NCBI GenBank assembly: GCA_029218405.1
Contig: JAQXRG010000028.1
Location: forward strand, 1-34,810
Reading direction: 5' to 3'
DNA: 34,810 nt
Source of the DNA: Bacteroidales bacterium
Lineage (GTDB): Bacteria; Bacteroidota; Bacteroidia; Bacteroidales; Bacteroidaceae
Part shown: positions 465-27,584 of the stretch, in pieces
Layout: each line of letters begins with the position of its first letter
Position numbering within the stretch: the first letter of the stretch is position 1
Position numbers and translations under genes: made by a program
The notes under the pieces: generated by a model
What the model was told of the DNA's origin: nothing
Database searches by the model: none
The model's input: only the letters and a program-made list of their open reading frames with translations

Positions 465-1121
465 CTATTTCGAGAGTGTCTTTACTACATTCTGGGCAAT
501 CCGTGAGGAACTCTTTCGGCTGTCCTTCTCCAACTGCTCCCGGTTGTCCAGGTCCATGCTGGTGAAATAATGGTTGCCGTGCGCCACCTCACGGTGATGG
601 CTGTCGTAGAGCGAGTAACTCGTGATGTGGAAAAGGGTGCGTAAGGGCTTCTCCTGCCACTTCAGGTAGTGGCGGTTCAGCAGCAGCACATAGTCAGCGC
701 CTGCAGCGTCCATCCACTGCCGGTAAGCCGCCTCGTCCACCTGGCTCAGGTCTGCATACTGTGCCTCCTCGTCCTCACCTTTCACCGACACACGCTCCAC
801 CCATCCGGAAGCCGACCTTCCTTCCACCGGAAGGAACTGGTAACGCCGGTCCTTGTTGGCACGGACAATGTTGTCCGTCACCGCCCGGTTGTAAGCATAG
901 TCGATGCTGTCCTCGGGCATCCCTGTCTCTTCCGCGATCATTGAAAGCGGAAAATAATTGGATTCCACGTTGTCGGGCAGTCCCACCACTAAGATTCGCT
1001 TCACTTCCGCCGCGTCTTCCGACTTGGGGGTTCCCGAAATCCGTCCGGCCAGAACGGTTGTCAGTGTCAATGCGGCCATGCAAGCCATCGCTGCCATCCG
1101 CTTGAAATAAGTTGTTTCCAT
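465..1121 (-). CDS. Secreted protein of unknown function, last gene of the receptor/GDPD cluster
   Basis: This 218-residue protein starts with a signal-peptide-like segment (residues 1-26, hydrophobic core AALTLTTVLAG) and has no lipobox, so it is probably periplasmic. I do not recognise the family. The mature part is hydrophilic and mixed alpha/beta, with a segment reading ADYVLLLNRHY near residue 140 and a Lys/Ser/Arg-rich C-terminus. It follows the GDPD gene by 56 bases, but that gap holds its own promoter. The promoter is strongly similar to the one before the TonB receptor two genes upstream. The shared control suggests a role in the same process, possibly handling of phosphodiesters under phosphate limitation. 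That role is inferred only from the promoter and the neighbours. Confidence 0.8.
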   Translation of the reverse strand: METTYFKRMAAMACMAALTLTTVLAGRISGTPKSEDAAEVKRILVVGLPDNVESNYFPLSMIAEETGMPEDSIDYAYNRAVTDNIVRANKDRRYQFLPVEGRSASGWVERVSVKGEDEEAQYADLSQVDEAAYRQWMDAAGADYVLLLNRHYLKWQEKPLRTLFHITSYSLYDSHHREVAHGNHYFTSMDLDNREQLEKDSRKSSSRIAQNVVKTLSK

Positions 1122-1143
1122 TTGCTTTTTCTCCTTTCTTGAT

Positions 1144-1197
1144 TACGCTGCAAAGATACGGGAGGCATGTTACAGCCTTATTGAGCTGAGGTTACAT
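1144..1197 (-). promoter_or_regulatory. Promoter with PHO-box-like repeats for the 465-1121 gene
   Basis: On the minus strand a perfect Bacteroides -7 box, TATCTTTG, lies at 1151-1158. Ten bases upstream of it is CTGTAAC (1169-1175). A weaker 7-mer, GCTCAAT, is 11 bases further (1180-1186), and ATGTAAC is 22 bases further (1191-1197). This gives 7-mers with 4-base spacers next to the core promoter, the geometry of PhoB sites in Proteobacteria. The element overlaps the end of the GDPD gene. Between 1141 and 1177 it matches the receptor promoter at 5211-5247 in 30 of 37 positions. The -7 box is directly visible; control by a PhoB-like protein is inferred. Confidence 0.65.
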
Positions 1198-1978
1198 TTT
1201 CAACACGCCCATCGGCAGTGCCCTTCAGCAGCCGCAGTGCGTCCACAGGACGGTCGGTGGTGATGAAATCCACCTTTCCCTCGGCCAGCCGCCGGATACG
1301 TGCGTCATCGTTCACCGTCCAGGCATTGACCGTCATGCCCAGCCGGTGTGCCTCGGCCACCCATTCCGGCTTCTCCTCCAACACCTTGTAGTGGTAGTCG
1401 ATGCCGTTGATGCCCAAAGCCTTCAGCTCCTCCGGAGCCTTGTCACTCCGCAAGTAAGAGATGGACGAGGACGGAGTCCGCGCCGCCAACTGCCGGCAGA
1501 CATTCAGGCTGAACGAGATGTATTCCACCTGCCGCTCCATGCCCAGGGCCTTCACGCGGTCCACAATGAGCCGCACCAGTGTGTTCTCCTCCTGCTCGGT
1601 CTTGTGCGGCTTGATTTCCAGGATCAATTGTACTCCCGGCTGCTCCTTGCCGGCCGCTAAATAAGCGTCCAGCGTAGGCAGCACCTCCCCGTTCTTCAGC
1701 CGCAGTTCCTGCAGCCGGGGATAGTCAGTTTCCGAAATGACTCGACCCTCGATGTCATCGTCGTGGTTCACCACCGCCACGCTGTCCTTCGTGAGCTGTA
1801 CGTCAAACTCTGAACCATACACGCCTGCCCGTGCCGCCTCGCGTAGCGAGGCCAACGAGTTTTGGGCACCACCTGCACAGTCCCAGTAGCCCCTGTGGGC
1901 AATCACTCTTGTCTGTCCGTATGCCGTCAGCGCAGTCAGGCCGAACAAGGCATACACGATTCTTTCTTTCCAATTCAT
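1178..1978 (-). CDS. Secreted glycerophosphodiester phosphodiesterase (GDPD family)
   Basis: This 266-residue enzyme is predicted to hydrolyse glycerophosphodiesters to an alcohol and glycerol 3-phosphate. After a signal peptide (about residues 1-21, cleavage near TAYGQ) the GDPD barrel shows its hallmark residues: HRG at 28-30, the metal-binding pair E57 and D59 in SEFDV, H72 in the NHDDD segment, and E121 with K123 in LEIKPH. The closing strands include AWTVND and FITTDRP. Length and order fit the single-domain bacterial GDPD type. It lies 27 bases after the TonB receptor and has no promoter in between, so the two are probably co-transcribed. Periplasmic location next to an outer-membrane receptor suggests import followed by cleavage of a phosphodiester. 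The exact substrate is unknown. Confidence 0.92.
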   Translation of the reverse strand: MNWKERIVYALFGLTALTAYGQTRVIAHRGYWDCAGGAQNSLASLREAARAGVYGSEFDVQLTKDSVAVVNHDDDIEGRVISETDYPRLQELRLKNGEVLPTLDAYLAAGKEQPGVQLILEIKPHKTEQEENTLVRLIVDRVKALGMERQVEYISFSLNVCRQLAARTPSSSISYLRSDKAPEELKALGINGIDYHYKVLEEKPEWVAEAHRLGMTVNAWTVNDDARIRRLAEGKVDFITTDRPVDALRLLKGTADGRVENVTSAQ

Positions 1979-2005
1979 TGTCGTTTATCGTTTTGTTCTT
2001 TCTCA

Positions 2006-5000
2006 TCAGAATCCATATCTCAAGCCTACCTGTACCTGGAACGGCGTACCGCTCAGGCTGGATACCCCCGTATTGGCGTTCACGTTGTAGGTGTACTGTT
2101 TCTGCTCCTGGTCGAAGCCCTTGATGCTATAGACATTCTGTTTGCCCAGATTGTGGTTGGCGCCCCATTTCTTGTTCAGCAGGTTCGCCACGTTGAAGAT
2201 GTCCACGGACACCTCCAGGTTCTGCGTGCCGAAAGTCTTGAACTTCTTCGCGAGGCGCAGGTCCAGCGTGCCGTAGAAGCCGTTCACGCCACCGTTGCGC
2301 TCGGCCACCTTGCCGAAACTCTTGCGCAGGTAGTCCTTCACGCTCTGCTCGGCGTCGGGATTGGACAGAATGGCATTGATGCCGTCGCGCAAGTAAGCGG
2401 GAGTGGCAGGGTCGTTCGGATCGTAAATGTAGGCCAAGTCATTGGAAGAGACAAAGTCGCCGTTCACATTCCCGTTCACCACTAACGAGTAGCGCGTGCC
2501 GCCGATGCCCGAGAAGCGGGCACCGACCGTAATGCCCCAGAACGTGGGTGCTGCCCCATAGACCACCAGCTTGTGACGGAACTGGTTGTTGGAGTAGGTC
2601 ATCCGGCTCAGGTCGCGCGGGTCGTCGGTCACCATCTGCGACAGGGTAGCCGAGTTGGCCACATTACCGTTGTAGGAGGTATTGTCCTTCGTGTCGTTCC
2701 ACGTATAGCTGAACGACAGCTCGCCGTCTTTGTAGTAGCGCCAGGTACCGTCAATGGTCAAGGCAAACTGGTTCACCTTGCCGCCGCTCACCAGTTCGAG
2801 CACACGGCCCACCTTCTCGCTCTTGCGTCCCTGCTGCCAGTCCAGCGTACCGTTGACGTTGATGGTGGAAGCCGGCACATAGACACCCCGGTTTCCCTCG
2901 GCCGCCAGGCGGAAACAAGGTTCATCGACCATGTTGCGGTCCACGTACATATAGTTGTTGCGCCCCAGCGTCATGTAGCCGCCCACGCTCACCTTCAGCC
3001 GGTCGCTGAAGAAGTGCGTGTAGGAGAAGTTCGCCTTATACACCGTGGGCACCTTCGCATCCTTGCCGTTCATGTTGATGGTGGGCACGGCCAGCGAGGC
3101 ATACTTCGGGTCGTTGAGCAGCTGTGTGCCGGGAGCCGTCAAGGGGTCCTTGCGGTAGCTCGGAAAGTCCGGCATCGGCATCAGGTCGGGCTGTCCCGGC
3201 GTGTTCTGGATGTCGAGCGACATGACCTTCGTGCCGTCGAACACCATGTTGTTAATCATCGCGTAGTTGTTGATGTCCGAAGCAAAGATACCGGCTCCCA
3301 CCCGAAGAATATCTACATGGCGGTCGTTGAAGTCCCAGGTCATCTGCACGCGCGGCTGAATCTGGAAGGAAGACAGTCCGTTGTCCGTGCGGAGCCCCAG
3401 TTCGTCATACACTAACTGGCTGAAGTTGCCTTTGTTGAAATAAGTGGCGTTGTCCAAGCGCAGGCCCGCCATCAGCTCGAAGCCTTTGAACAGCTTGGTC
3501 TGCAGCTGGGCATATACCCCCGCGTTGAGGATGTTCTGCCGCACGCGCTGGTCGGGGTTGAGGTACACCTCGCGCACATAGCGGTACGGCTTCATGGCCT
3601 CGAAGTTGTCCAGTCCCGTGAAGTAGAAGCGTCCGTTGGCCTCGCTGCCGTAGCGGGAGTTCATGTTCGTGTACATGAGGTCGAAGCCATAGGTATAGTT
3701 CACCTTGTTGGTGTTATAGTAATAGTTGTCCACCAGCTGCACCACGTGGTTGTAGAAGTTCTCCGGCGAGTAGCGTTGTCCGCCCAACTGGATGGTTGTG
3801 GTGGCCGTCTTGCCGTCAATGTCGGAGGCCACGCGCTCCACGATGGCCCGCGGGATGTTGGCCGACGGCAGCTCACTGCCCGGCATGGATTTCTCTAAGG
3901 TATAGAGGTGCTGCAGCTTCAGCTCGTTGGTGCTGCGCGGCCCCAGCACCGAGCGCAGGGTGGCGGTGGCGCTGTTGTTCAGCGAATGCACGTCGCCATA
4001 CACCTCGTAGATGTTGATGCTGCTGTTATCACCCAGCCCCATGTTGTTCTGGTCGTTCACGAAATTGTCCGTAAACGTCAGCAGGTTCGTGGCATTGATC
4101 TGCCAGTCTAAGCGGCCGAACACGGCATCCGTGCCTTGCTTCTTGTCGAACGCGCCGAACTGTGCGTGGTCGGACACACCGTACTTGCGGCGGGCGATGT
4201 CGAGGAAACGGTCGCGGGTGTCGGCCGTCAGGTTCAACCGTTTCTCGTCGGCCGCGCTTTGGATGTCGGCAATGTAGAGCGGGCGCGAGTCGGACTGGTG
4301 GTCCCACGACAGGAAGAAGTGCAGACGGTCCTTCTTGATGGCTCCGCCCAACGAGGCACCATACTGATAGGTAGAGAAGTCGTTCGAGCGGCGGTTGCCC
4401 CGGATGTCGTAGCGGCTCGACAGCCAGTCGGCCCGCAGGAAGGTGAAGGCACTGCCCGTGAGGCGGTTCGTTCCCGACTTGGTCACGGTGCTGATGGTAC
4501 CACCCCCGGCCCGTCCGTTGGTCACGGCGTACTCGTTGGTCACCACCTTGAACTCACGGATAGCCTCCATCGAGATGGCATAAGGCACACTGTTACGGCT
4601 CGTGGTGCTGCCGCCCGATGTCGGTCCCTTGGCACTCATTCCGTCGATGGTGTAGTTGGTGGACGAGGCCAGCTGCCCCGACAGGCTCGTGCCCGTACTG
4701 AGCGGCGAGAGGTCAATCAGCGAGGTGAAGTTACGTCCGTTCACCGGCAGCTTGTTCAGGTCGTTGGCCGTCACCGAAGTGGCGGCTCCCGTGGTCGATA
4801 CCGTGTTCTTGAGCGAGTTGGCCACCACCTCTACCGCCTGCATCACCACGCTTTCCTCCTTGAGCTGGAAGTCCAGTCGCAGCACGTCCCCCTGGTTCAG
4901 GGTATAGCCTGTCTTCTTCTGGTCGCCATAGCCTACATATTTCACCGTAATAGAATAAGGAGAACCCAGCGGCAGCTGCTTCACAATGTACTCGCCCGAC

Positions 5001-5194
5001 TCGTTCGTGATGGAGCCGGTCGTGAAGCCCGTCGATTCGTTCTTAATCTGTACGGTAGCTCCGATGACCCCTTCTCCGGTCTCGTCGGTGACGATACCCT
5101 TCACGATGGCCCGGTAGTCCTGAGCCGATGCCGTTCCTGCCACTACCACAGCCGGCAACAGAAGGAGGTCTTTCCATGTAAACAATCTTTTCAT
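2006..5194 (-). CDS. Oar-like TonB-dependent outer-membrane receptor
   Basis: This 1062-residue protein has a signal peptide (residues 1-24, ending TASAQ), a carboxypeptidase-D regulatory-like beta-sandwich (about 28-112, with GIVTDETGEGVIGATV), a plug domain (about 120-240, with LPVNGRNFTSL and TISTVTKSGTN) and a long beta-barrel ending in an aromatic residue (VGLRYGF). The plug wording and the absence of a neighbouring SusD gene place it with Oar-type TonB receptors rather than SusC. It takes up an unidentified substrate across the outer membrane using TonB energy. It is the first gene of a cluster with a secreted GDPD and a secreted unknown protein. The start is supported by the signal peptide and by the -7 box 26 bases upstream. 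PHO-box-like repeats in that promoter hint at a phosphorus-containing ligand; this is inference. Confidence 0.93.
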   Translation of the reverse strand: MKRLFTWKDLLLLPAVVVAGTASAQDYRAIVKGIVTDETGEGVIGATVQIKNESTGFTTGSITNESGEYIVKQLPLGSPYSITVKYVGYGDQKKTGYTLNQGDVLRLDFQLKEESVVMQAVEVVANSLKNTVSTTGAATSVTANDLNKLPVNGRNFTSLIDLSPLSTGTSLSGQLASSTNYTIDGMSAKGPTSGGSTTSRNSVPYAISMEAIREFKVVTNEYAVTNGRAGGGTISTVTKSGTNRLTGSAFTFLRADWLSSRYDIRGNRRSNDFSTYQYGASLGGAIKKDRLHFFLSWDHQSDSRPLYIADIQSAADEKRLNLTADTRDRFLDIARRKYGVSDHAQFGAFDKKQGTDAVFGRLDWQINATNLLTFTDNFVNDQNNMGLGDNSSINIYEVYGDVHSLNNSATATLRSVLGPRSTNELKLQHLYTLEKSMPGSELPSANIPRAIVERVASDIDGKTATTTIQLGGQRYSPENFYNHVVQLVDNYYYNTNKVNYTYGFDLMYTNMNSRYGSEANGRFYFTGLDNFEAMKPYRYVREVYLNPDQRVRQNILNAGVYAQLQTKLFKGFELMAGLRLDNATYFNKGNFSQLVYDELGLRTDNGLSSFQIQPRVQMTWDFNDRHVDILRVGAGIFASDINNYAMINNMVFDGTKVMSLDIQNTPGQPDLMPMPDFPSYRKDPLTAPGTQLLNDPKYASLAVPTINMNGKDAKVPTVYKANFSYTHFFSDRLKVSVGGYMTLGRNNYMYVDRNMVDEPCFRLAAEGNRGVYVPASTINVNGTLDWQQGRKSEKVGRVLELVSGGKVNQFALTIDGTWRYYKDGELSFSYTWNDTKDNTSYNGNVANSATLSQMVTDDPRDLSRMTYSNNQFRHKLVVYGAAPTFWGITVGARFSGIGGTRYSLVVNGNVNGDFVSSNDLAYIYDPNDPATPAYLRDGINAILSNPDAEQSVKDYLRKSFGKVAERNGGVNGFYGTLDLRLAKKFKTFGTQNLEVSVDIFNVANLLNKKWGANHNLGKQNVYSIKGFDQEQKQYTYNVNANTGVSSLSGTPFQVQVGLRYGF

Positions 5195-5220
5195 CTTTTT
5201 TGGTTTTTATGATTACGCCG

Positions 5221-5267
5221 CAAAAGTACCCGAGACAGGTTACAGCCGTGTGTCAACAGTGACACAT
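5221..5267 (-). promoter_or_regulatory. Promoter with PHO-box-like repeats for the TonB receptor
   Basis: On the minus strand the -7 box TACTTTTG lies at 5221-5228. Exactly ten bases upstream is CTGTAAC (5239-5245), followed at 11-base steps by TTGACAC (5250-5256) and ATGTGTC (5261-5267). The same layout, with the identical CTGTAAC, precedes the gene at 465-1121. There is no good -33 element, which would fit an activator-dependent promoter. An overlapping small palindrome, TGTCA-N4-TGACA (5251-5264), is also visible. Confidence 0.65.
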
Positions 5268-5605: not shown

Positions 5606-6550
5606 CTATCCCTGTAACCGTCCGATTTCCTCTATGGTCAGACCGGTCAGGTCTCTGATGTCTTCAAGCGGCAGTCCCTTCTCCTTCATCTTACAAGCAA
5701 TGGCAAATGCCTTATCCCGCTCGCCTTCGGCGCGTCCTTCCGCGCGTCCTTCAGCACGTCCTTCCGCACGCCCTTGCTCATTGCCCGCAGCAAATCCTTT
5801 TTCCAGACCTTCGGCATATCCTGTCTCACGGCCGCGACGGACGGCACTGTTGAAGATCGTCCGTTCCGTACGGATGATGTCCCAGAACTTGTCGTAACCC
5901 AGCAGCTGCTCGTCGGTGTAGGCGGATTCCTCCACGACAGCCAGGGCCTTACTGATGTCGGGATTGTCCAGAAGTTCCTGTGGGGCGTTGCGCGTGCTCT
6001 CCTCGATTTCCGTGAGATAACGCAGCCAAAGCACCTGCATCCGCTTCTCCGTCATGCTGTGAGGACGGAACTTCGGAAGCTCAACGAAGACAAGGTGCAG
6101 GCCGTCAATGACCTTGTCCGTGTGCATCTCGTGCACCATACGGTAGTAGTGATAGTACTCGGGGATGTCCTTCTCGAAGATGTCGTTGACAAGATTCAGC
6201 GAATAGACCGGCTCCAGCAGGTGGAAGTCCTCCTTCCTGTCCAACTGGCGAACGTACGCCTTAGCCGAGTTGAACATCACACGCTGCATGAATTCGGGAG
6301 ACCAGATCATCTGCATCTCGACGATGAACTGACGGCCCCTGCTGTCCATGCAACGCACATCGACGATGCTGTTCTTGCGGAGCGGGTTCTCGGGAACCAG
6401 CTCCGGGGTGAGATACTGCACGGAAGTGATGTATTCCTTCGCCGTGGTGAAGGGAAGCAGGGCGTTCAGGAGGCTGATGACGAGGTCGGGATGCTCTCCG
6501 AACACTTTCTTGAAGGTCAGGTCAGCCTTCGGGTCAAGATACTTTGCCAT
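5606..6550 (-). CDS. Rpn family recombination-promoting nuclease / putative transposase (PD-(D/E)XK)
   Basis: This 314-residue protein belongs to the PDDEXK_2/Rpn family common in Bacteroidales, recognisable from its start (YLDPKADLTFKKVFGEHPD) and the nuclease core. D64 in IVDVRC and E78-x-Q80 in FIVEMQM are the likely catalytic residues. Family members in Escherichia coli cleave DNA and promote RecA-independent recombination. No terminal inverted repeats or target duplications were seen, so it is treated as a stand-alone gene rather than an insertion sequence. Residues 260-275 are four copies of GRAE encoded by a 12-bp tandem repeat. The C-terminus (ERDKAFAIACKMKEKG onward) is a helical tail often seen in these proteins. 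It has its own promoter at 6574-6604. Confidence 0.9.
   Translation of the reverse strand: MAKYLDPKADLTFKKVFGEHPDLVISLLNALLPFTTAKEYITSVQYLTPELVPENPLRKNSIVDVRCMDSRGRQFIVEMQMIWSPEFMQRVMFNSAKAYVRQLDRKEDFHLLEPVYSLNLVNDIFEKDIPEYYHYYRMVHEMHTDKVIDGLHLVFVELPKFRPHSMTEKRMQVLWLRYLTEIEESTRNAPQELLDNPDISKALAVVEESAYTDEQLLGYDKFWDIIRTERTIFNSAVRRGRETGYAEGLEKGFAAGNEQGRAEGRAEGRAEGRAEGERDKAFAIACKMKEKGLPLEDIRDLTGLTIEEIGRLQG
5726..5773 (-). repeat. 12-bp tandem repeat, 4 units, inside the Rpn gene
   Basis: Four adjacent 12-bp units (consensus TTCCGCGCGTCC on the plus strand, with a few substitutions) encode four GRAE tetrapeptides. Because 12 is a multiple of three, gain or loss of a unit would keep the frame and only change the length of the Gly/Arg/Ala/Glu linker. 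Such repeats commonly vary in copy number between strains. Confidence 0.85.
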
Positions 6551-25157: not shown

Positions 25158-27584
25158 TTACTCACCTGTCTTCAAGGCTTTCGCTATCGAGTTAGCCATC
25201 GCCGCCCAATGGGCGCGAGTGGGAACGTCAGTGACCGCGGCAGAGGCCGTCTGTGCCTGACGTTGTATCTTCATGACTTCCTCGCGCACCAGTGCCTTGG
25301 CCTCGCCATCGCCTTTCGGGTCGTCCAGCAGCGACAATGCCTGCTCCACCCACCGCCGTTGCAGGTAACGACGGTACGTGTCCACCGGCTTCCGGGCCGG
25401 CAGTTCCGTAAACACGCAAGCCACCAAGTCTGACAAATACTCCTCGGGACGGTAGTTCTCCGGCGAACGGTCCGCAAACTGCCGCATACGTGCCAACGCT
25501 TCCAGATTGAGCAACGCCGTTGACCGAGCATTGACGGCCTGGTCCACCAACCGATAGACATACTGGTCGGGCTGGTCAGTCAGTCTGAACAGGTAGTCCT
25601 CGGCCACCAACCATTCGGGCTTATGAAACAGATGACGGTCCAGGAAGCCGAGCGCCTCCCGCTGGCGTTCCTTGGATACCGGAACATAAACAGGACCGGC
25701 TTCCTCCACACTCTTGTAATTCCGGTGAATACCGCCGATATTCGCACAGACATGACCCAGGTAGCGCCCGTACTGGGCGATGACTTCCCCATAAATACGG
25801 GCCAGGCCGGTATTCATATCCGCTTCCTGACGCGTCCAGTCAGGCAATGCCTGAACAATCCGACGCAGGTTCTTCAACCCATATTCGCTGGCCTTCATGG
25901 AATTGTCCCCCAAGTCCTCCCGTTGGCTGCGGGGGTCGATGCGGATTTCCTCACTGCCGAACCACAACCGGGGATTGGCTTCCAGCCGCGCGACAATCTC
26001 ACGGTTCCAAGCCAGATGGTCGGCTTCCTCATCTTCCAGGAACAGCGGCTTATATCCATACTCAATCGCCCATTTGTCGTACTCCCCGATGCGCGGATAA
26101 ATGCCCTTGGGCGAAATGTTGTCTTCGGGCTGGGCGACATAATTGAACCGGGCATAATCCATGATGGAAATGGTGTGCCCGTTGGCTTCCACCCATTCCT
26201 TGTCACGCAGCTTCTCCACAGGAGTCTGGCTGCTGGCCCCCATGTTATGACGGAGTCCCAACGTATGACCCACCTCATGGGAGGAGACAAAACGGACCAA
26301 GTCGCCCATCAGTTCCTCATCGAACTGCATCTTACGTGCCCGGGGGTCAATGGCACCCGCCTGAATCATGTACCAGTCGTGCACCAGCTTCATCACATTA
26401 TGGTACCAGCCGATATGGCTCTCGATAATCTCGCCGGAACGAGGGTCGTGCACCTGGGGCCCGTACGCATTGGGAATATCAGACGCTAAGTAGCGGATGA
26501 CCGAGAAACGGGCGTCTTCCAGGCTCATGGTCGAGTCATTCGGCCATTCCAGCGCATAGATAGCGTTCTTGAAACCGGCCCGTTCGAAGGCGGCCTGCCA
26601 ATCATTGACACCTGCTATGAGGTACTTGACCCATTGTTTGGGCGTGGCAGGGTCAATGTAGAACACAATAGGCTTCTGAGGCTCCACCAGCTCTCCCCGC
26701 TTCATCTTCTCCACATCCTCGGGACGAGGTTCCAACCGCCAGCGGGTGATGAACTTGCACTCCTTCACACTCTGCTGGTCGTCGGAGAACCACTGGAAGG
26801 AATCGGTGAAATAGCCCACCCGCAAGTCGAACCACCGTCGCTGCATGGGCTCTGTGGGCAACAGGACAAAAGAAGTGTTCAACAAGACGGACACCACACC
26901 GGTCTGTACACCAGCAGGCAGCACCGCTCCTGAAGAGCGGGTAGGCGTCCCCTGCTGCCGTGCGTTTTCCGGAGCGACGAAACGAAAGGTCTTCGTGGTA
27001 GTCACCTCCGTATTGATGGGATAGGTACGTATGCTCTGGATGGAAGAAGCCTCTTTCTTCAATTCCCCCAAGTGATACGCCTTCTTGCCTCTGGCATCGA
27101 AGGAAAAGGCCTGCACCTCTCCGGCAAAGAACGATGTCACGTTAATGCGGCTGGCTCCTTGCGCCCGACCCGTTATCTTGAAAACACCGAGAATCGGGTC
27201 TTCGCTGGAAATCCTGACGGCTTGCGCAATCCGGCTGCCCGGTGCGGCAGCCGCCTTCAGAATCATGGACCGCAACACCAACGTGCTGTCCACTCCTTTT
27301 TCCCAATAGACCGTCTGGTTGTTCACCATCTCACCGCCGTACACGCCGGCATTGACAGGGCTGGCCACATAACGGGTCACCGCCAGGACAGGACGCCCCA
27401 TGAGGGAGTCAGGCACCGACAGATACCAGTCCGCCCCTTTCCGGGCCACCCCAAACAGTCCTTCCTGCCAGGTCATTTCCGACAGGGGCTGCCGCGTGCC
27501 GGCAGGGTGCTTGACACGCTTGGCCACTGCCGATGCCAACAGACAGACCGACAGGACCATATATACTACTACTCGTTTCATCAT
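25158..27584 (-). CDS. Secreted zinc-dependent metalloprotease (DUF5117/DUF5118-type, metzincin-like)
   Basis: This 808-residue protein has a signal peptide (about 1-21, ending ASAVA). N-terminal DUF5118/DUF5117-like regions follow (about 40-400, with DSLMGRPVLAVTRY and FYIDPATPKQWVKYLIAGVNDWQAAFE). The catalytic site is HEVGHTLGLRH, with zinc ligands H436, H440 and H446 and base E437. It is followed by SIMDYARFNY, which looks like the Met-turn of metzincins. A long helical C-terminal domain completes it. It should degrade proteins or large peptides in the periplasm or outside the cell. It starts 6 bases after the S9 peptidase stop and is the last gene of the SusC/SusD operon, so its products are probably imported or used by that system. 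Confidence 0.92.
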   Translation of the reverse strand: MMKRVVVYMVLSVCLLASAVAKRVKHPAGTRQPLSEMTWQEGLFGVARKGADWYLSVPDSLMGRPVLAVTRYVASPVNAGVYGGEMVNNQTVYWEKGVDSTLVLRSMILKAAAAPGSRIAQAVRISSEDPILGVFKITGRAQGASRINVTSFFAGEVQAFSFDARGKKAYHLGELKKEASSIQSIRTYPINTEVTTTKTFRFVAPENARQQGTPTRSSGAVLPAGVQTGVVSVLLNTSFVLLPTEPMQRRWFDLRVGYFTDSFQWFSDDQQSVKECKFITRWRLEPRPEDVEKMKRGELVEPQKPIVFYIDPATPKQWVKYLIAGVNDWQAAFERAGFKNAIYALEWPNDSTMSLEDARFSVIRYLASDIPNAYGPQVHDPRSGEIIESHIGWYHNVMKLVHDWYMIQAGAIDPRARKMQFDEELMGDLVRFVSSHEVGHTLGLRHNMGASSQTPVEKLRDKEWVEANGHTISIMDYARFNYVAQPEDNISPKGIYPRIGEYDKWAIEYGYKPLFLEDEEADHLAWNREIVARLEANPRLWFGSEEIRIDPRSQREDLGDNSMKASEYGLKNLRRIVQALPDWTRQEADMNTGLARIYGEVIAQYGRYLGHVCANIGGIHRNYKSVEEAGPVYVPVSKERQREALGFLDRHLFHKPEWLVAEDYLFRLTDQPDQYVYRLVDQAVNARSTALLNLEALARMRQFADRSPENYRPEEYLSDLVACVFTELPARKPVDTYRRYLQRRWVEQALSLLDDPKGDGEAKALVREEVMKIQRQAQTASAAVTDVPTRAHWAAMANSIAKALKTGE

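Follow-up and report, generated by a model that had tools for sequence, protein, structure and literature searches.

In Escherichia coli, the last repeat of a PHO box lies close to a core promoter element. The box itself is based on the motif CTGTCAT and is made of two 11-base direct units of 7 conserved and 4 less conserved bases, as described in the part of a Pho review used here (PMC4415409). For Bacteroides fragilis, the sections of PMC3547664 used here report that PhoB binds the pst promoter and that pst, ppk, alkaline phosphatases, and a phosphate permease are PhoB-dependent; those sections give no box sequence for this PhoB, and neither a TonB receptor nor a GDPD is among the representative genes of its Table 2. 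The phosphate utilisation systems (PUS) of Flavobacterium johnsoniae comprise outer-membrane TonB-type receptors and phosphodiesterases and are induced by phosphate depletion (PMC8115612, in the sections used here).

The locus described here shares with the E. coli PHO box, as outlined in that part of the review, its 7-base direct repeats at 11-base steps, but differs from it in the core TGTAA(C/T), in the presence of three repeats with a degenerate middle one, and in the use of a Bacteroidetes -7 box, TAnnTTTG. As in the B. fragilis PhoRB regulon (PMC3547664, same sections), a PhoB/PhoR pair is encoded, and counterparts of the pst, ppk, permease, and phosphatase genes are preceded by the box. 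The pairing of a receptor gene with a phosphodiesterase gene is also that of the PUS, whereas a lone Oar-like receptor without SusD, an accompanying protein with a predicted TolB-N-like fold, and a gut Phocaeicola-like host distinguish this locus from the F. johnsoniae systems in those sections of PMC8115612. No SusC and SusD pair is present at the module, and neither the GDPD nor the accompanying protein was matched by SusD models. Outer-membrane systems for phosphate utilisation are already known; the version with a lone Oar-like receptor would be new.

The window, meaning the whole stretch of 34,810 nucleotides that was analysed, is contig C28 of a host genome of 2.71 Mb in 188 contigs (83% complete). 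The genus was read as Phocaeicola-like from the protein relatives of the GDPD, which include proteins from an uncultured Bacteroides MAG (84%), a Phocaeicola plebeius MAG (83%), and a Prevotella MAG (59%), together with the GDPD of P. coprocola DSM 17136 (57% identity). On the minus strand, the gene for the Oar-like receptor is followed by the GDPD gene and then by a gene for a 218-aa protein (Table 1). The first two genes are separated by 27 bases, a spacing that would fit a single transcript. Because the stop codon of the GDPD gene lies at 1180-1178, the first two 7-mers of the promoter of the 218-aa protein sit within the 3' end of the GDPD gene. Directly upstream of the receptor promoter, at 5606-6550, a gene resembling Rpn-type PDDEXK nucleases/transposases was seen, with a GRAEGRAEG-type repeat close to its C-terminus, and a Met-zincin protein (DUF4953/DUF5117/DUF5118) with no relation to the promoter finding is encoded at 25158-27584.

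Table 1. Features of the module and of its two putative PHO-box promoters, in window positions
Feature	Position	Strand	Length	Details
Putative PHO-box promoter of the receptor	5221..5267	-		ATGTGTC-actg-TTGACAC-acgg-CTGTAAC-N10-TACTTTTG; matrix-model E 4.4e-5, itself a training site
Elements of the receptor promoter	5267-5261; 5256-5250; 5245-5239; 5228-5221	-		ATGTGTC; TTGACAC; CTGTAAC; -7 box TACTTTTG
Oar-like outer-membrane receptor	2006..5194	-	1062 aa	Carboxypeptidase-regulatory-like N-terminal domain and OMP_b-brl_4 barrel
GDPD-family phosphodiesterase	1178..1978	-	266 aa	PF03009
Putative PHO-box promoter of the 218-aa protein	1151..1197	-		ATGTAAC-ctca-GCTCAAT-aagg-CTGTAAC-N10-TATCTTTG; matrix-model E 1.9e-6, itself a training site
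Elements of that promoter	1197-1191; 1186-1180; 1175-1169; 1158-1151	-		ATGTAAC; GCTCAAT; CTGTAAC; -7 box TATCTTTG
218-aa protein	465..1121	-	218 aa	Probably exported (N-terminus judged by eye)

The first-pass annotation had counted 30 identical bases of 37 between the two promoters (5211-5247 against 1141-1177), and a recount gave exactly this number. The segment 1141-1177 matched no other place on the plus strand of the window at 22 or more of 37 bases, the opposite strand gave at most 20, and 200 mononucleotide shuffles gave at most 24. The geometry described in the same annotation, with CTGTAAC 10 bases ahead of TAnnTTTG in both promoters and 7-mers stepping by 11 bases, was likewise recovered, and CTGTAAC-N10-TAnnTTTG occurs exactly twice in the window at up to one mismatch, against 0.03 expected. 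Both promoters have a degenerate middle repeat, and the strict adjacent pair TGTNAY-N5-TGTNAY therefore has no match in the window. A share of the 30 identities comes from the stretch 3' of the -7 box (GCGTAATC), so that conservation between species applies to the box and not to all 37 bases. In box-type promoters, the last repeat is expected about 10 bases from a core promoter element, with the -33 element absent. As in E. coli, the last repeat here stands near the core promoter element; the 10-base spacing holds in the sites (for most of them, it was a criterion of selection), and TTTG was found 17-23 bases ahead of the -7 box in 0 of 24 sites, a count confined to these box-led sites. An A followed by C or T occupies columns 5, 16, and 27 in 21, 22, and 24 of the 24 sites, respectively, only the third position having been selected for, and these columns give the direct 7-base repeats with an 11-base period that characterise a PHO box.

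Among 40 GDPD loci fetched from relatives, the receptor adjoins the GDPD gene in 11, and the gene for the 218-aa protein follows it in 11. The promoter pattern was kept before orthologous receptors and 218-aa proteins in related species, as scoring with the promoter matrix showed, with the best site about 8-70 bases 5' of the start for 12 receptors and 13 218-aa proteins; these are the genes with enough upstream DNA, loci L053 and L177 included, and the printed distances extend 15 bases past the start. Scores ranged from 22 to 53 bits with the exception of the receptors of L116 (6.4), L118 (8.8), and L053 (13.6). As 18 of the 25 scored sites served in training or nearly copy a site that did, seven are non-training sites, namely these three weak ones and four others at 41.7, 29.5, 22.5, and 21.9 bits. 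Spacers diverge in relatives, whereas the repeats and the 10-base spacing persist. Of the 29 GDPD genes without the receptor, 3 (L117, L127, and L136) have a strict box directly upstream and 26 have none there within the DNA fetched. At four loci (L117, L125, L133, and L135), a box is retained behind the GDPD gene without a detectable gene for the 218-aa protein.

The first-pass annotation had suggested checking whether phosphate genes carry the motif. In its strict form, this search found only the two window sites in the host genome, which together with the absence of a PstS match makes the literal motif uninformative there; it was rejected as a regulon test, and a profile was built instead, with which sites were found before ppk and a PHO4 permease. 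This promoter model of 47 columns was made from sequence only, using 24 sites that all come from loci of this GDPD, without any site from a pst, ppk, or permease gene, and 150 first-look candidates were scored per genome. Six matches at E<=10 were obtained in the host genome: the two window training sites, one at the end of contig C80, one before ppk (PF13089, the N-terminal frame of a polyphosphate kinase), and two adjoining part-matches within one promoter before the PHO4 permease (PF01384). The ppk and permease matches are individually weak (E 0.7-1.2). The host ppk frame (L157:1064-1477, contig C145) stops after 138 aa with only its N-terminal domain matched, which points to a broken gene or an assembly fault.

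Across 16 relatives, hand-chosen out of 60, the model gave 98 matches at E<=1, of which 37 reached E<=0.1. Fifteen of these 37 lie at this module or at its GDPD and 218-aa parts, 14 of them being training sites. In the remaining 22, a phosphate or phosphoester gene comes next in 10 cases, a SusC-SusD-GDPD/GH92 locus in 2, and the gene of another TonB receptor, with no phosphate link, in 2; the last 8 have an unrelated gene or no clear gene downstream. The 10 genes encode PHO4 permeases (3), calcineurin-type phosphoesterases (3), a ppk product, a Na/Pi cotransporter, a PHP/DUF5001 protein (frame 207 bases downstream), and a porin-like protein heading pst; 3 of the 10 were assigned through 93-96% identity with a tested protein. 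Sites were also found ahead of genes with no link to phosphate (Peptidase_C11, FecCD, and DUF4302). At E 0.13-0.4, where some matches were inspected, sites precede a PHO4 permease, two PafA-type phosphatases, a pst porin, and a phosphoesterase, and also unrelated genes (one DksA-like by look, one for a 235-aa protein without a Pfam match). The two PafA-type genes belong to two relatives, one (L205) being an NF042991 equivalog and the other (L206) 72% identical to it. For plant-associated Bacteroidetes, the sections of PMC8115612 used here connect PafA with a constitutive phosphatase activity, against which the box-led state of L205 and L206 stands out.

As a control, columns 1-29 of the model were shuffled with the -7 half kept, and the same 16 genomes and the host were searched. 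At E<=1, it matched 40 sites, 4 of which reached E<=0.1; the host genome contributed none. None of the 30 loci inspected out of these 40 precedes a recognised phosphate gene; a frame follows in 24 of the 30, in no case with a product like those to which the unshuffled model had led, and the 10 of these 24 that were compared with Pfam gave no phosphate family and one general MFS transporter. In 14 genomes of other genera, the unshuffled model gave 21 matches at E<=0.5, of which 6 precede genes that look phosphate-type by sequence: a PHO4 permease, two pst-porin-like genes, a PhoU-like gene, a PafA-like gene divergent from a GDPD gene, and a gene for a PhoB-like response regulator. A plain count of TGTAAY-N10-TAnnTTTG over 60 genomes (210, against 127 for the reversed motif) showed enrichment and was set aside as too loose to define a regulon alone.

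The matrix derived from the module was also applied to pst loci. The idea of a single PstS behind PF12849 was discarded, as at least two classes exist, of 272 and about 350 aa, and 30 loci were scored, a part of the PstS places found in the survey. Upstream of the 350-aa class, 12 of the 15 fetched loci exceeded all shuffles (dinucleotide shuffles, 200 per locus, of a 1.5-kb upstream stretch), and the other three gave p values of 0.010, 0.015, and 0.065; for the 272-aa class, 7 of 15 exceeded all shuffles and 8 did not. Eight of 15 pst loci have an off-consensus -7 box (CATTTTTG or GACCTTTG) with the 10-base spacing retained. In the loci inspected, the 350-aa class is preceded by a porin-like gene, so called from its position and look, since Pfam gave only a sub-threshold BBP2 match. 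No PstS match at E<=1e-15 was found in the host genome (an 83%-complete assembly), and its own pst promoter is consequently not readable; in the close relative G018, the box stands ahead of the pst porin-like gene. One box is shared by pst and other phosphate genes.

PhoB and PhoR are encoded next to each other in the host genome, both above the cut-offs of the NCBIfam Bacteroides equivalogs (NF053854, 369 bits against 270; NF053855, 720 bits against 500). By eye, TTGACAC-N4-TTGTAAC-N4-GTTTCAT can be recognised upstream of host phoB, a site that the promoter model did not list in that genome. Because phosphate genes are box-led, the shuffled control finds none of them in the 30 of its 40 loci inspected, and PhoB and PhoR are encoded, the boxes are very likely PhoB sites, that is, PHO boxes, which would place the module in the Pho regulon; the same evidence supports the phosphate-starvation control put forward in the first-pass annotation. 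We infer that PhoB recognises the TGTAAY box and induces the module through it. With good confidence, the module can be explained jointly by PhoB-activated promoters, import by the receptor, cleavage by the GDPD, and a partner role of the 218-aa protein. When phosphate is scarce, the response regulator PhoB would activate both promoters from the 7-base direct repeats at 11-base spacing, the last of them 10 bases before the Bacteroidetes -7 box, and these repeats would stand in for the usual -33 element. One promoter would give the receptor-GDPD transcript and the other the 218-aa protein. The receptor would probably carry an organic phosphate, likely a phosphodiester, across the outer membrane, where the periplasmic GDPD would cut the imported compound; a PafA-like phosphatase and Pst/Pit transporters would complete the route, and the 218-aa protein would act as a periplasmic partner of the receptor.

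The substrate is where this explanation meets its most serious alternative. The receptor has the carboxypeptidase-regulatory domain and outer-membrane barrel of Oar-like receptors (PF13620, 9.2e-20; PF25183, 3.4e-35), and Pfam reported no TonB plug (PF07715) at E<=0.001. Its orthologues are 77-97% identical in 11 relatives. The GDPD is placed by PF03009 (5.3e-29; 102.5 bits against a gathering cut-off of 23.6), its hydrophobic N-terminus was taken by eye for a signal peptide, and the closest solved structure, 3no3, covers nearly the whole mature protein (E 6.4e-69). The module probably scavenges phosphorus from organic molecules, to judge from its genes and boxes. Import of phosphodiesters by the receptor is plausible, with the chances about even, and glycerophosphodiesters as the GDPD substrate are a guess at the level of the family. 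It is a real, if somewhat less than even, possibility that the module belongs to the Pho regulon yet the receptor does not serve glycerophosphodiesters, the GDPD handling small diesters that enter through porins while the receptor imports teichoic-acid fragments, phosphorylated glycans, or nucleotides, or exports or assembles a surface protein. Some Oar proteins do export or assemble a surface protein, small diesters would require no energised receptor, and 42 of the 61 genomes of the genus encode the GDPD, against 12 for the receptor (at least 77% identity). A paralogue of the receptor (60%), found in G021 and G038 between a DUF5001 protein and a calcineurin-type phosphoesterase, has quite different phosphoesterases as partners. 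Against this alternative, the receptor at that identity directly adjoins the GDPD gene in all 12 receptor genomes, host included. The paralogue operons are themselves box-led (22.9 and 24.4 bits; L271:1428-7421 and L272:3026-9008), a second tie between the receptor family and organic phosphate, one that does not depend on the GDPD; the PHP domain of their DUF5001 protein is barely over threshold in one of the two species. In the two closest relatives, the receptor is 95-97% conserved, compared with 83-84% for the GDPD and 66-83% for the 218-aa protein.

The 218-aa protein had no Pfam, NCBIfam, PDB-sequence, or meaningful PHROGs match. It occurs in 14 of 149 genomes searched, host included, all within the genus, and in every one of the 12 receptor genomes (Fisher 5e-11 for the 61 genomes of the genus, kinship ignored); as the GDPD is far more widespread in the genus, the protein travels with the receptor and not with the GDPD. 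In G056, its gene lies about 36 kb away with its own box kept. An AlphaFold2 model from 13 sequences (pLDDT 79.5, the first 36 residues of low confidence) predicts a fold that past residue 36 may resemble FlgT, TolB-N, CsgG, PelC, and LptE, as judged from a VIA-align second look at the structural matches; sequence similarity to this group was undetected, and the likeness does not imply function. LpoB, which had been guessed as a fold match, was not among the 50 matches listed. The protein could be a periplasmic partner of the receptor, a possible but rather doubtful role.

It is unlikely that another OmpR-family regulator such as RprY, or several, uses the boxes and that the link to phosphate is partial. 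The host genome also encodes RprY (NF051850), whose winged-helix domain is of the same Pfam family, and certain box-led genes have no obvious connection with phosphate, but the box stands ahead of pst, phosphate permeases, ppk, a PafA-type phosphatase, and, by eye, phoB. In B. fragilis, moreover, a phoB deletion leaves only a trace of pstC expression and slows growth at low phosphate, and deletion of a second candidate regulator, BF2185, differs from it (PMC3547664, same sections). Hardly credible is the proposal that the promoters are alike through a recombination copy or a shared strong core promoter and hold no regulatory site, for although one module holds both sites at a distance of about 4 kb and their identity runs on past the -7 box, spacers drift in relatives around conserved repeats at a fixed distance, and the box also precedes unrelated phosphate genes that are absent from the inspected loci of the shuffled-repeat model.

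Under PhoB control, the regulon might extend further. Box-led SusC-SusD loci with a GDPD and a GH92 mannosidase were noted at L264:667-9986 (G013), L265:648-8548 (G058), and L266:2727-11111 (G051), with GDPD and GH92 fused in G058 and the SusD of L266 assigned by look. The promoter at the end of host contig C80 is the same as that in G013, where such a locus follows. From their gene content, these look like phosphate-starvation loci for phosphodiester-linked mannose. There is an even chance, in our estimate, that the Bacteroidales use a PHO box specific to them (TGTAAY in 11-base steps, the last copy 10 bases before TAnnTTTG) that runs a phosphoester-scavenging outer-membrane regulon. Its members would be the lone Oar-like receptor with its GDPD and TolB-N-fold partner, the paralogue with its DUF5001/PHP protein and calcineurin-type phosphoesterase, and the SusCD-GDPD-GH92 loci, which may mine phosphodiester-linked mannans.

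With the box, control by phosphate starvation in the Bacteroidales can be put as a concrete rule at the level of sequence. No such rule was found in print in the open-access literature, which was the scope of the search, or in the part of the Pho review used here (PMC4415409). With it, the Pho regulon of gut Bacteroidales becomes readable from sequence. The module points to receptor-based uptake of organic phosphorus in the gut and makes the 218-aa protein a named candidate for a partner of the receptor. If the wider reading is true, gut bacteria would harvest glycans and lipids for phosphorus besides carbon.
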